Assembly: GCA_034231615.1 (NCBI GenBank)
Contig: CM067298.1
Location: 37,020,127-37,084,126 of the forward strand
DNA from: Meghimatium bilineatum
Lineage: Eukaryota > Mollusca > Gastropoda > Stylommatophora > Philomycidae
DNA: 64,000 nt
Direction of reading: 5' to 3'
Numbering within the stretch: the stretch's first letter is position 1; every line of letters begins with the position of its first letter. Made by a program: the position numbers and the translations under genes. The notes beneath the pieces are model-generated. The model did not search any database. It saw only the letters and a program-made list of their open reading frames with translations, and had not been told where the DNA came from. Shown here in pieces: positions 39,396 to 56,975 of the stretch.

Positions 39396-39412
39396 CTCAT
39401 ACTTAAAAGCAC

Positions 39413-40075
39413 TTGAAGCCACACGATACAATAATTTACACAGACAGCTCACTAACACAAGAAACAAACAGGTGTGGTTGGGGTTTCATGGCCTACCAAA
39501 ATGGCAAGAAATTAGCTGAGAAGTCAACTGCATATCCCACTACAACATTGAGTATGAGAATGGAAATAGAAGCGGTGATAGCAGCTCTCACTTTGCTAGC
39601 AATGCAACCACCAACAGACTCAGTGATTCTATCACACTCTCAAAGTATGTTGCACAAGATAGAAAAGTGTATGTTCAGAACTGAATGGGTCACTCTTCTC
39701 AACAATGCGCAGATCATTACATGGATTTACTGCCCAGGTCATGTTGGGATCAGGAGAAACGAAAGAGCCGATGTGTTGACTGGGAAAGCCTTGGTGAACA
39801 GTATCGAGATAAGAATAGACAGGATTGAATTGATTAGAGCAATCATGGATACCCTACGAGAAGATGAGGAGGAGGGTGAACAAGACAATGTGCATATTCA
39901 AAGAATGGTAGAAATGGGAGGGACTAGTTGTCATTGGAGAAAGTGCTCCCTCACCGGAAAGTACAAAAGAACGCATAATCAGCAACTGACTGGGACACTG
40001 AGCTTATACACGTTTAGATGGTTGATGCAATGCCAAGCAGAGCATATATCAAAAATCAAGATAAGGGATTGGTTT
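39413..40075 (+). mobile_element. LINE family A copy 3, intact RNase H frame
   Basis: An uninterrupted frame encodes TIIYTDSSLTQETNRCGWGF, MRMEIEAVIAAL, SQSMLHKIEKCM and ITWIYCPGHVGIRRNERADV, a nearly whole RNase H with Asp, Glu, Asp(Ser-changed) and Asp positions visible; the third Asp of the usual TDSQS is replaced (SHSQS). The C-terminal tail runs to about 40070, after which the sequence is antisense to LINE F. Confidence 0.85.
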
Positions 40076-43000
40076 CTTCTGCAGAGTTTGTTTATGTTGT
40101 CATTGTCCTTTGGCTGTGTCATTTCACTAAATACATTTCGATCAGTCAGCCCAATTTGCCCATCTGTTCAACCAGATTTCCCTGGTGTTGTTTCTGAGAA
40201 TCTGTATGACTGTTCCCATACTACAAGGTCTTTGCTTTTGTTGTTTTGAGGCACCTCTTTTTTGCAAGTCTGTCCACTAATTCGTTTCCTTCTATATCAT
40301 TATGTCCAGGGATTCATTGCATGGTTACACTGATTGGATATGCAGAGATAAGACTGTGCTGATAAGGCTTTTGCTATGTGGAGAATATCTTGATTTTCAT
40401 ATGGGGCATGTTTAAGAGCTTCCAAAACTGACATAGAGTCTGTAAAAATGACTATGTCTGATGGTTTCTGTTCCATGAGATCAAACTATTGGTGTATTAA
40501 CTCAATGGCTCTCTTGATGGCTTCAGCCTCTGCTTCATAATTTGAGAAATTTTAACCTCAGATCACAGAACTTGTAGGCAGATCCATCAGGTATTGCATA
40601 TGGATGCCATATACTGTAAAACAGGTGGCCTTGAAAGCAGATCCATCAGTGTAGGCCTTGATTGCTATGATGGGTAGCTGTTTATAGTTTCTAGGGCACA
40701 TGTTCTCAGGATGGTTGGTAGTGTTCCCTTATTTGCTGTTTCATCTAAAAATTTTGTTTGGATTGTTGGTTGGTGCAAGTTCTCCCAAGGGGGTGGTCCG
40801 AGGTATTTTTTTTCTAGTTCCATCTCTTGCAGTAACTGGTGTTTATAATCTTCCTCTCCAGATATATCAAGTAGAAACAGTTGATTTTGTCTTTTTGTTT
40901 GTTCCCAAGTGTCAATGAGTATTTTATTTTGATGGTCATTCTTTTGTCTCTTGTAGCTTTCTACCGCTTCCGTCAGTGCTCTTTTCCGTCTGATATCCAG
41001 GGGCTCTACATTTGCATTAATACTGCTGTGGGTGTTGATTGCATCTCTCCACAGATTAGTCTCAGAGCTTGGTTCTGCACCCTATTCAGGGATGAGATAG
41101 TTGTATTGCTCACAATGGTCTGGAGAGAAAGGCTGTAATCCATTACTGATCTCACATAGCAAAGATACAGTTGGCAGAGAGTCTGGTTGTCTGCCCCCCC
41201 CCCCAGTTTGTACTATCTAGTCTCTTAATGAGGTTTAGGCATTAACTTGTTTTTCCTCTGAGATTTTCTATGTGGTTGTATTGTGTTAGTTGTCTGTCTA
41301 GTTTTACTCTAAGGTATACAGGGGTTTCTTCCTTTGTTAATATTCCCCCACTCATTTTGATGTTGACATATTTTTTGCTGCTTTGTGACCATGAGAGAAT
41401 AGAGTAAGCAGTTTTCCGTGTAGTGATTTTTAGTTTCCACAATTCACAATATACTGAGATTGTGAGGAGCTCTGTTGATCTTTGCTTTTGCCAGGATATG
41501 ATATTTATTAGTGGCCCAGATGGCAAGGTTAACAGCAAACAATGCTTTGACACATTGAAATGATTCACTAGATCATCAATTAAAATAAGGAAGAGTGTGC
41601 ATTTTAGAGTGGAGACTTTCCGCCGAAGAAGGATGTGTCGGGCCATTGGCGCAAATAAAACGGTGACACAACGTATTTCCATTCTTTGGACTGCATCCTG
41701 CTGGAAATCTAGTAGTACTGCTTCAGAAGAGATCCAGCAGGAGTTTGAGAATGAACGCTGAAGAAGAAGAAGAGTGGAGCCTTGAGGCAGTCCCTCCTCC
41801 ATTGTTCTTTTTCGGGATAGTGTACCAGCTGTGATGATGTTCCTCCTTCTCAAGCGAAGATGAGCATGGCATGAAAAAACATTAGATGCAATAGAAAAAA
41901 AAAAAAATTATAATAATTAAAATTGGTAATTAATTAATTAATTATCAGCTGTACCAGCATAGCTGGTGACTATGGTTCTGTTTGTCAGGAAGGCCTGCAT
42001 CCATTTAAACATCTTTCCACTTATTCCCATTCTGTTCATCTTCAGCAAAAGTCTTCACCAGACTTTGTCATATGCTTGCTCAAGATCAATGAACACTACT
42101 TTTTCCGTCTTGGAAACTATCCATCACATTTTATGTGAATCTGAAAAGAGGGTCATCTGTATGACATTTGTGCTTGAAGCCTGCCTGGTTATTATCTATA
42201 CAGTCATGGTCTTCTAGCCACCAGTATAGTCTGTTCTTAACCATTCTCTCAACCAGCTTGCCTATGCATGAGGTGAGGGATATGGGCCTATAACTTCTTG
42301 ATGTTCCTGCCAGTTTTCTTTTCTTAAGAATGAGGTTGATGGTTGCTCTGAGACATGGCAATTGTTCTTCCTTGCATGTTCTATTAATAAATTATAGGAG
42401 TATTACTTTTGCATTAGGTCCCAGCTGAGATATCATTTCATTTTTAATTTTATCTGGTCCTGGAGATATGTTTCTAGCAAGTTTCCATATTGCCATAATC
42501 AGTTCTTGTATGCTGAATAGGCCATTGAATGCAGCAATATTGTTCTGATCTTTGTTAGGCATTATACTATGTAAGTATTTTGTCTAATTTATTCCTTTGC
42601 TGTGACTTGTTAACATTTGCATGAAAATTGTTGAATGTATCTGCTTTCTTCATGGGTATTGTTATTTCATTGCCACAATCATCTACTATGGGTGTTGGAT
42701 TGTTCTTTCTGTATTTTCCCTCAATATTATGCACGCTTCATTTCCTACTCTTTTTAGATTTAGTTTGCTACATTTTTCTATCTAGGTCTTTCATTTGTTT
42801 TCTTTTGTGATTTATCTTACTTTTGCTGTCCATCTGTTGTATTCTGTGTTGTTTAAGGTGGTAGAGTGTTTCTTAGCTTTCTTCCAGGCCTTTCTCCTCT
42901 CTTTGACTGCTTCAGCCAGTTCAGGTGTCCAATAGTGTTTGTATTTCTTGACCTTACCCCTTGGCATACATTTTTAGCAGGTGCTAAAATTATGGTGCAG

Positions 43001-54050: not shown

Positions 54051-56975
54051 AGCACTGTTCCATGACAGATTCTAAGATATGGACATCTGAGATCAATACA
54101 ATAGCTCGTGAACTGCCACAAGGATCTCCCCTGTCCCCAGTGATGTTTAATGTGTATACGTTGAGAATTTCTCAATTGCAAACCTCAAGCAATTGTAGAG
54201 TTCTAACCTACACTGATTATATCCTATTTTACAATATGTGCTGGAGCAGAACAGATAATTCTGATAGTATACAGAGTGAACTAATTCAGTTGTCGATATG
54301 GTGCAGAACATACAACTATGTGATAAATGCCTCAAAAGCAAAGGTCATCTGGTACTCCTTAAATAATAATCTGGTCAGTGACACACTGCCAGCTGTTAGT
54401 TGCATGGGCTCATTCAATGAAAGAGAACAGGACCTTAAATATCTTGGGATAACCTTTGATAGAAGTCTCTCATTCAACAAACACATCACAAATATGATTC
54501 AGAAGGCTAAAAGAGGGATTAGTGCTATCAAGGTTATGGCAACATTCGACATGCAGCAATTGGTACTGTTTCTATTTCTACAAGTGATGGTGCTATCTGT
54601 CATAGATTATGGCCTCGGCCTACTAACACTGTCATAGACACAAGTCAATAGATTGGAGAAAGTCCAAATTGAGGCAAAGAGAGCGATACTGGGTTGCACT
54701 AGGGATACACCCATCTCTGCTATGAGATTTCTGTTTGATCTCCCCAGCATTAGAGTGTGACATCAGGTAGCACAAGTTAGGTCATATCATAAAGTGACAG
54801 AATACAACCGCCGCCGATTACACCAAAATCTAGATGAGTCAAAGGGAAAACACATCATGGATGGCAGAGGCTGAAGACACGCTGCGAAGAGTATGTGAAT
54901 TTGAAGAAATTGGAAAGGGCAGTGAATGGATGGAAGTAAACACTGAGAAGAAATTACTGACTAAAGTAATAATACAATTAGTTAAAGTGTGTTGAAAATG
55001 AACGGGTGTAAGGGCCCAGGTTACAGCGCATAAACTCGCCCAGATACACTCGAAACAAAAGACATAATTATATACACAGATGACCCCGTTAACAGAAACA
55101 CAAATAAAAGTGGTTGGGGTTTTGTTGCCTACAGAACAGAATTTTTTTTTATTTTTATTTTTCGTTCGCTCCATTGTAACCATCACGGATATCCGTGCGA
55201 TTTCCGCCGGGAGCGTGATTACGTTGTGCCACCGTTATGCGCCTTGTAGGCCTAGCACATCCGATTTCGGCATGCCTTGACAATTCGGGTGGGCTACCCT
55301 TAGCCTGTGACAGCCTCTATATCTGTCTCCAGGCACGCGTAGTGGAGACTCTTCACCCAGAGGATTTTCTTGCTCTTAGTCTGACTCAAACGAGGTGTTC
55401 CACTGTCTATGAACTTGCCTCGTGTAATTGGACGTGCTGTGCCTGTGCCCATTGAGTACTGAACCGTTTCTCATCCGTGAGCCTGGTTCCTTAAGGGGAA
55501 GAACTCAACAGAGGAGTTGGACCCTGGCTCTTTCGCCCTCTTAGCCGAGGTGTCATTCACCGACATCGTGTACCCCTTGTCCAAGTTCGAGTCTCACACC
55601 ACGCGTTTGAGAGCAAGGCGTTCTCGAGCTGAGCGTCCTTGTCCCAATAGCGCCTGAGCCCATCAGGTACTGAACCCTTTCTCTCTTCAAGTGTATTTCC
55701 GGTGTAGGAAAACTTGACAGTAGAGTTGGGCCAGGGCTAAATCGTTGTCCCTTTCTTGCCTAAGCCCATTGGGTACAGAACCCTTTCTCTTCGCGAGCAT
55801 ATTTCCGGTTTAGGAAGGCTCGACCTTAGAGTTGGGTTAGGTCTTCTTGCTTTACCAAACACCAGTGGATGGGTCTGGGTCTCTGCCTGTAAGGAACTCA
55901 GGTAACTAGAAGCCCGTCTCGAGCTGACGGAGCTTGTAGCTCCCCCTTTCCTAGGGACTTTTCACTTTCTATTTGCAGTTCGCGCTGCCCTCTAGCGCTG
56001 TTCTGCCCTTTCATTGTTTCATTGTACTCGGTATGAAATCTATGTCTCTCGCCATGTATCTACCTTTACGTGCATTTTACATTGGCCGCCCCTCCAATGT
56101 TCGGACTGGACTGACTAGCTTCACTGTATGTCGACAGTGTCGCTATATGTGGTGATGCTGGTGGTGTCGGAGATATGTCTGTCCGTGTGCAGGCAAATCT
56201 CTTTCCATCTGCTACCTCCACATTTTCGGACACGATCCCCAAATGATTTGGCCAGAATCAGCTCGAGCTGCTGTATTTCTGTTTCCAGGGTGCACCGCAT
56301 TGAGGTACATTTGGGATCTTGGTTATCTGCTAACCCTGGGTCCGCCTAGAGCAATGCGTTCCCTTTGCACCCCACAGAACAGAATGAAGTTGGTTGAGAA
56401 ATCTTCAGCATATTCCACTGTCACATCGAGCATGAGGATGGAGATAGAGGGAGTTACAGTAGCACTTAATTGGTTGATAACTGATACATTAACACACCCA
56501 GTAATACTCACAGACTCTCAAAGCATGCTGCTTAAGATAGAAAAGTACATGCTGAGAAAAGAATGGTGGGACTTATTTAATAACTCATTTGTTCTGAGCA
56601 TTACTTGGATATACTGCCCTGGTCATGCTGGGGTCAGTGGAAACAAATGAGCTGACTTATTGGCAGGAAATGCGGCAATAGAGAAGAGATATGCTGAGAA
56701 GAGATAAAGCAGACTTTATCAAGGCAGTTATAAATTCATTTCAAGATGAAGATGATGTCAAAGAGGCTGAGAACTACACATACAAAGAATATTAGAAATG
56801 AGTCTCTAGAGGGAATGGAAGGAAAAGTAACTTTTTTGAAAATCATGCAATCAACACCTGACCGGCACTCAGAGTCCACATAAACGTGGATGGTTGCTGG
56901 AACAGAGAGCAGATCACTTATGGGAATGTCCCACATTCTGTGAAGCCAGTTTCTAATCAAGAATCAAGATTTTAT
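54050..56975 (+). mobile_element. LINE family A copy 4, RT and RNase H, split by an insertion
   Basis: The RT frame (54062-54637) has ELPQGSPLSPVMFNVYTLRI, YLGITFDRSLSFNKHITNMI and AKRGISAIKVMATF; the catalytic YADD is changed to YTDY. The linker (LESVQIEAKRAILGC-like) leads to the same DEDTL/GKGSEW region as copy 2. RNase H is cut at 55142 and resumes at 56386 ([38 protein letters not shown]). It ends atcaagaatcaag. Inactive. Confidence 0.92.
55143..56373 (-). mobile_element. Unknown 1.23-kb retro-inserted sequence with 12-bp TSD
   Basis: It is flanked by acagaacagaat at 55131-55142 and 56374-56385. It starts with a T-rich run (A-tail on the minus strand), so it was copied from a minus-strand transcript. 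It is GC-richer than its surroundings. It contains three imperfect repeats starting gcccattgagtactgaacc (55447), gcccatcaggtactgaacc (55661) and gcccattgggtacagaacc (55762). On the minus strand a frame near 56300-56130 reads LETEIQQLELILAKSFGDRV and on to TVDIQ. No family recognised. Confidence 0.8.

Follow-up and report, generated by a model that had tools for sequence, protein, structure and literature searches.

A young, abundant composite retroposon with a predicted HDV-like ribozyme head in the genome of the slug Meghimatium bilineatum

What kind of sequence has inserted into a dead long interspersed nuclear element (LINE) on contig CM067298.1 of the slug Meghimatium bilineatum? The locus lies in a 64,000-nucleotide stretch of GenBank assembly GCA_034231615.1 (positions 37,020,127 to 37,084,126 of the forward strand), which was analysed as a whole and is called the window here; feature coordinates are those of the window. 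The insert probably belongs to a young, abundant, LINE-mobilized, non-autonomous composite retroposon with a 5' end defined by a ribozyme. In sense order it consists of a ~140 nt motif resembling the hepatitis delta virus (HDV) ribozyme, a unique region, ~106 bp tandem units, a 3' module resembling a short interspersed nuclear element (SINE) and an (AAAC)n tail.

The insert and its family

The original prediction, made from the sequence of the window alone, had described an insertion of about 1.23 kb in a dead LINE, with a 12 bp target-site duplication (TSD), an A-rich tail on the minus strand, a GC-richer interior and three imperfect internal repeats. All of these were found, the repeats starting at 55441, 55652 and 55758 with spacings of 211 and 106 bp. 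The locus is made up as follows.

55143-56373, minus strand: complete composite retroposon, defined by its ends, its TSD and the genome copies
55131-55142, no strand: TSD copy 1, ACAGAACAGAAT, direct repeat
56374-56385, no strand: TSD copy 2, ACAGAACAGAAT, direct repeat
55143-55162, minus strand: A-rich 3' tail of the window copy, read from the sequence
54053-54637, plus strand: reverse transcriptase remnant of the host LINE (RVT_1, Pfam, E 1.2e-9)
56393-56647, plus strand: RNase H remnant of the host LINE on the downstream side of the insert (RNase_H in 56156-56647, Pfam, E 1.1e-5)

The two ACAGAACAGAAT copies enclose 1,231 bp, with the sense 5' end at 56373 and the tail at 55143; the GC content is 0.47-0.52 inside and about 0.34-0.43 in the surroundings. 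This copy differs from the family majority at 20 of 1,207 positions and its own tail is A-rich with T. The decayed host LINE is split by the insert, the reverse transcriptase remnant lying on one side and the RNase H piece on the other. When the flanks are joined in silico, an apparent RNase H start adjoins the right-hand piece with a change of frame between them; Pfam was applied to the right-hand piece only, and the left-hand part was judged by eye. Elsewhere in the window (39407-40246, plus strand) a 280-aa open reading frame carries a LINE-type RNase H domain (E 2e-14).

The genome (32 contigs, 1.612 Gb) was searched for further copies. Among the best 40 of 4,905 candidates in a similarity search, all 39 scored matches besides the window copy cover nearly the whole element at 96-98% identity. 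When up to three mismatches were allowed, the 5' terminal 32-mer was counted 12,752 times, the 3' terminal 32-mer 13,252 times and a 33-mer at the start of the 3' module 13,860 times; reversed-pattern controls gave 0. Together with the locus samples described below, these counts point to about 13,000 long copies joining both ends. At ~1.25 kb each, the family is estimated at ~1% of the genome, a larger share than the 0.60% given for all SINEs together in the published description of the M. bilineatum genome (PMC10770140).

Two samples of loci show how complete the copies are. Thirty loci were cut out around an exact match to the 3' end: in 26 the element begins at nt 1-2, and in the other four only its last ~112 bp are present; once the near-copies L084 (of L082) and L085 (of L083) are dropped, the full 5' end is present at 25 of 28 unique loci and the 3' module alone at three. 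No other 5' truncation point occurs among these 28, one of which (L063) has an internal deletion. The two near-copy pairs lie about 0.45 Mb apart (G000:C1:5.5-6.1 Mb): over 3 kb, L083 matches L085 at 99% identity, while L082 and L084 have one insertion and one TSD in common. This suggests a recent segmental duplication or an unpurged haplotype in the assembly. From the other end, all 20 loci cut around the 5' end (window copy included, as L041) run from the head into the same body, and 18 extend as far as the 3' module; two copies (L045 and L060) are broken and one (L047) has an internal deletion. The broken copy at L060 (1850-3144) holds only nt 1-404, and further downstream of it lies a tandem array with a unit of about 43 bp, TTTCTAGCTGGGTTACCCAATAATCAATTTCCAGTTCTACTTG. 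The 25 copies with a full 5' end diverge from the majority by 2.0% on average: 1.5% in nt 1-140, 2.3% in the body outside the tandem units and 1.0% in the 3' module, where the sample itself had been picked by exact match.

The insertion signature was examined at 82 non-redundant composite loci, a set that includes the window copy and leaves out L041 (the window again), L084, L085 and a second, partial match at L035. A TSD of at least 9 bp stands at the predicted ends of 77, compared with 18 of 315 tests at displaced positions. The duplications are mostly 11 bp (18 loci), 12 bp (33) or 13 bp (17), making 68 loci in all; none was detected at L004, L009, L048, L073 or L086. An (AAAC)n or (CAAA)n tail is present at 77 of the 82 loci. 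The first TSD base is A in 62 of the 77 duplications, which would fit target-primed reverse transcription on an (AAAC)n tail. The longest of the 13 open reading frames of the element (≥50 aa) has 78 codons' worth of protein (78 aa), and none of the nine that were scanned reached the Pfam cut-off; the element is without recognizable coding capacity. By its copy number, variable TSDs, tail and missing coding capacity it is a non-LTR (long terminal repeat), presumably LINE-mobilized, non-autonomous retroposon.

The original prediction had left three options and proposed a genome search for many copies with the same tail. That search returned the element ends ~13,000 times, with shared ends, TSDs and (AAAC)n tails, in favour of its first option, a long non-autonomous retroposon. 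A processed pseudogene or retrocopy of a single host transcript would also carry a TSD and an A-rich tail, but both ends recur ~13,000 times, no scanned frame has a coding match and the number of internal units varies; the idea can be given almost no weight, and we rejected it. A retro-copied noncoding RNA fared in between: no Rfam family matches, whereas an HDV-like ribozyme motif does stand at the 5' end. A known structured RNA was rejected as well, on the lack of an Rfam match; three chance-like matches in relatives include none of HDV type. The size of the family, its ribozyme head and its separable 3' module were beyond the reach of that first, sequence-only account.

The 5' head as a predicted ribozyme

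HDV-like ribozymes have their cleavage site at the first nucleotide of P1, and the L3 loop and the J4/2 junction form their core (PMC4908430). In the slug element the core elements all occur in order from nt 1.

56234-56373, minus strand: predicted HDV-like self-cleaving ribozyme motif, nt 1-140, with cleavage predicted just before 56373
56367-56373, minus strand: P1 5' strand GGGGUGC, nt 1-7
56319-56366, minus strand: J1/2, nt 8-55, 48 nt, with two predicted hairpins (folding, motif reading)
56308-56318, minus strand: P2 5' strand GAUCCCAAAUG, nt 56-66 (motif reading, pairing test)
56304-56306, minus strand: P3 5' strand ACC, nt 68-70 (motif reading)
56297-56303, minus strand: L3 loop, nt 71-77, UCAAUGC in the window copy
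56294-56296, minus strand: P3 3' strand GGU, nt 78-80 (motif reading)
56287-56293, minus strand: P1 3' strand GCACCCU, nt 81-87, with a G.U pair at nt 1 (motif reading)
56285-56286, minus strand: GG for P1.1, right after the P1 3' strand
56252-56284, minus strand: P4 hairpin region (folding, pairing test)
56246-56251, minus strand: J4/2, C-C-A-A-A-U (C-N-A-A type), with the predicted catalytic C at 56251, assigned by position only
56234-56245, minus strand: P2 3' strand CAUUUGGGGAUC, nt 129-140 (motif reading, pairing test)

Among the 82 heads, 78 start with exactly GGGGTGC, 50 have the L3 sequence TCCACGC and 81 have a C-N-A-A J4/2. The window copy has TCAATGC in L3 and its P1.1 is therefore weakened. 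Long structured J1/2 regions are known from R2 ribozymes, and a cytosine in J4/2 is catalytic (PMC11331408).

A strict motif scan with a detailed loop consensus gave 68 matches in 358,679 bases, all of them in this family (the window, L001 and L041 being one copy). Reversed and block-shuffled sequence gave 0 matches each, and order-1 random sequence gave 11 per 10 Mb on one strand. Of the 25 heads in the 3'-anchored sample, 16 pass the scan exactly at nt 1.

Pairing was compared across diverged heads. The diverged head at L031 led to 82 places, from which 14 relatives were picked for variety; at least one of these, L105, is a copy of the present family with a shortened loop. With boundaries set by hand in 15 sequences (L105 and the window copy omitted, L002 representing the family), P2 strands pair better with their own partners than with swapped ones (mean -6.94 versus -5.68 kcal/mol, p=0.009), as do the halves of P4 (-7.07 versus -5.83 kcal/mol, p=0.017). 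Individual compensatory changes can be read directly: the family P2 pair CCCAAATG/CATTTGGG is replaced by CCCAAAAG/CTTTTGGG in L103 and by ACTAAAAG/CTTTTAGT in the old L031 copy, and the family P4 pair CAGAA/TTCTG by CAGACTGC/GCAGTCTG in L104. At least four of the 25 young heads (L063, L070, L073 and L090) have the P2 3' strand CTTTTGGGG against CCCAAATG, a form that looks like an intermediate. Sequence and pairing are thus consistent with a predicted nested double pseudoknot (P1, P1.1, P2, P3 and P4) that begins at the cleavage site, in which P2 and P4 appear to covary.

The same retroposon could exist with a 5' fold that is not a working ribozyme; the head would then be an internal promoter or a protein-binding structure, and the uniform 5' end a transcription start. 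Several results weigh in that direction or against the proposed retroposon more generally. Rfam is silent: no family matches the window region at E≤5 and none of HDV type matches the 14 relatives at E≤10, where three other matches look like chance; the long J1/2 may have defeated the models. P1 shows no covariation, being either invariant or decayed; GGGGTGC is in place in five of the 14 relatives and is displaced in L094. L3 is three bases shorter than the HDV type in six of the 14 relatives and in the old L031 copy, a form that the gapless search pattern for relatives favoured. U replaces the J4/2 cytosine in two of the 15 sequences (L096 and L098), and nine of the 25 heads do not pass the strict scan from nt 1. 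The sequences permuted in the pairing test are related, which makes its p values optimistic, and an automatic segmentation with wrong boundaries (17 sequences) gave p=0.014 for P2 and p=0.085 for P4. The 5' end scores no better than its shuffles in nested folding (z -0.44 and -0.34), although such folding cannot model pseudoknots and was not used as evidence. No promoter was found for the element. A partner LINE sharing the tail was not found either: the locus flanks hold one stray (CAAA)3 and the window nothing convincing. A tail 24-mer (up to one mismatch) occurs 10,870 times in the genome compared with 13,252 for the 3' 32-mer (up to three); at these differing thresholds the counts do not point to a larger family with the same tail. 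Because sampling relied on exact or near-exact matches, all the loci sampled are biased to young copies.

Set against a head that is not a ribozyme are the full HDV-like topology exactly at the first base of the element, where chance would place it about once per Mb per strand, the pairing of P2 and P4 kept despite sequence change, and a C-N-A-A J4/2 in all but one of the heads. We regard that alternative as unlikely and prefer a ribozyme-defined 5' end.

The head may also have an older history. L100 and L106 together represent an older relative with the same head (75% across nt 1-211), and six-frame translations of about 1 kb, judged by eye, contain no reverse transcriptase; long noncoding elements with this head may, on this one example, predate the young burst. 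Contig C1 has 71 exact matches (69 of them with sequence) to a head in which L3 takes the older form TCCTCRT, which suggests an older layer of a ribozyme superfamily, of several hundred copies if the other contigs resemble C1. With up to two mismatches the same pattern occurs 14,675 times, a figure that includes the young family, so that the older relatives can be counted from exact matches only.

Tandem units, the 3' module and a possible route of insertion

Behind the head and the unique region, self-comparison identified the internal units, and stand-alone copies the 3' module.

55742-55844, minus strand: internal ~106 bp tandem unit, 103 bp (self-comparison)
55636-55738, minus strand: internal ~106 bp tandem unit, 103 bp, 76% identical to its neighbour at 55742-55844
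55441-55472, minus strand: third, diverged copy of the conserved 32 nt motif of the unit (self-comparison)
55163-55274, minus strand: SINE-like 3' module, stand-alone at L061, L076 and L083 (L085 being a near-copy of L083)

Relative to the window copy, the number of units among the 82 loci is lower by three in one, lower by two in one, equal in 60, higher by one in 19 and higher by two in one; the longer form is the commoner one in the 3'-anchored sample (15 of 25). SVA-type elements are marked by such an arrangement, in which a 5' domain and a SINE-like 3' domain enclose tandem units that vary in number.

The three stand-alone loci carry only the last ~112 bp and the tail, begin within a few bases of one another and have their own 10-12 bp TSDs. 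We read the 3' end of the long element as a SINE. Neither Rfam nor ARAGORN relates the module to a small RNA, no Rfam or tRNA match indicates an RNA polymerase III promoter of tRNA, 5S or 7SL origin in it, though the module may have an unusual promoter, and ARAGORN found no tRNA gene in the window. At L035, positions 2559-2890 are an older 3' part of the element (84%) right beside a young copy. It is possible, if not our preference, that the short copies arose by initiation inside the long element and not from a captured independent SINE: there are only three independent ones, and their sequence is that of its 3' end. All three, on the other hand, start within a few bases of one site with TSDs of their own, and the 28 unique loci offer no further truncation point.

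The separable module also bears on the origin of the whole. The element could be the untranslated remnant (5' and 3' untranslated regions) of an autonomous ribozyme-bearing LINE. It would then have arisen by deletion, in the manner of R2 SIDEs or NARTc, and not by the joining of a head to a SINE of other origin. Both of those groups are described as truncated versions of LINEs (PMC3414825; PMC4035085), and TSDs of 11-13 bp fit a LINE endonuclease. But all 20 loci cut at the 5' end lead into this body, the old relative L100+L106 shows, by eye, no reverse transcriptase over the stretch translated, and the 3' module occurs alone. Such an origin seems to us rather doubtful, although a rare autonomous master may exist.

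For the composite that we favour, the following route would account for the copies. Transcription would start at an internal promoter or reach the element by read-through. Its first ~140 nt, for which the structure has support, would fold as an HDV-like ribozyme and cut just before GGGGUGC; every template RNA would then begin at the same base and keep a stable, pseudoknotted 5' end. The TSDs and the tail suggest that the protein of a partner LINE may bind the SINE-like 3' module, the (AAAC)n tail or both, with priming on the nicked target. Reverse transcription would proceed up to the cleaved 5' end and leave the complete 5' ends and 11-13 bp TSDs that are observed.

LINE copies are usually 5'-truncated. 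Almost all sampled copies of the slug element keep the full 5' end, perhaps because of the predicted ribozyme head together with a 3' end that can stand alone. We tentatively propose a new kind of animal composite, a ribozyme head with variable tandem units and a captured SINE, in which the pseudoknot would define and protect the 5' end of the RNA so that nearly all of the ~13,000 insertions, at 1.2-1.3 kb, stay 5'-complete. If this is true, the genome has been seeded with thousands of self-cleaving RNAs able to cut host transcripts that carry sense copies, and these would supply thousands of natural ribozyme variants for measuring the effect on such transcripts. In an engineered R2 system an HDV-like 5' module raised the efficiency of insertion, which was ascribed to RNA stability (PMC11331408); a 5'-complete 1.2 kb family with a predicted ribozyme would be a natural, large-scale test of an HDV-like 5' fold in insertion, including any part it may play in keeping copies complete.

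One locus held an unrelated nuclear sequence of mitochondrial origin: at L091 (G000:C2:121988305-121991928), positions 531-2148 carry a copy of ND2 and, behind it, of the 5' part of COX1, which stay open when read with the invertebrate mitochondrial code. This copy is consistent with a pulmonate gastropod; the sequence that follows is, by eye, a tandem repeat.

Comparison with known systems

SINEs are small elements with a tail and TSDs. The slug 3' module resembles them in its ~112 bp, its (AAAC)n tail and its 10-12 bp TSDs; it differs in having no Rfam or ARAGORN match, and the composite is about ten times as long as the module.

No comparable mollusc element appears among the titles and abstract openings listed in the literature searches, though an earlier description may exist. 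With the present family, the known range of non-autonomous retroposons headed by a ribozyme would come to include an abundant mollusc one. The R2 SIDEs and R2/R1 hybrid SIDEs of Drosophila are likewise headed by a ribozyme, which the hybrids join to the 3' end of another element (PMC3414825, PMC3774820). Both lie in rRNA genes and are called rare in these sources, whereas the slug element is spread over many chromosomes with its ends present ~13,000 times; it also differs in its long body, where the tandem units vary in number, and no LINE parent was found for it. In trypanosomatids, NARTc, RIME and SIDER are non-autonomous retroposons of which the 5' ~77 nt are described as a promoter and an HDV-like ribozyme (PMC4035085). 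The slug element departs from these in its 48 nt J1/2, its length of 1.2-1.3 kb, its tandem units, its separable 3' module and its animal host. An autonomous LINE that could have given rise to both ends, as in R2 SIDEs and NARTc, was not among the 20 loci cut at the 5' end.

The SVA and LAVA elements of apes are likewise composites, with variable tandem repeats and SINE-derived parts, and are mobilized by LINEs in trans (PMC4432496, PMC7353768). The slug element differs from them in its 5' domain, a ribozyme motif, and in its (AAAC)n tail, and the analogy is one of build, with no sequence relation claimed. On the best reading of these comparisons, the slug element would work like R2 SIDEs or the NARTc and SIDER elements of trypanosomatids, and appears to be built like SVA.

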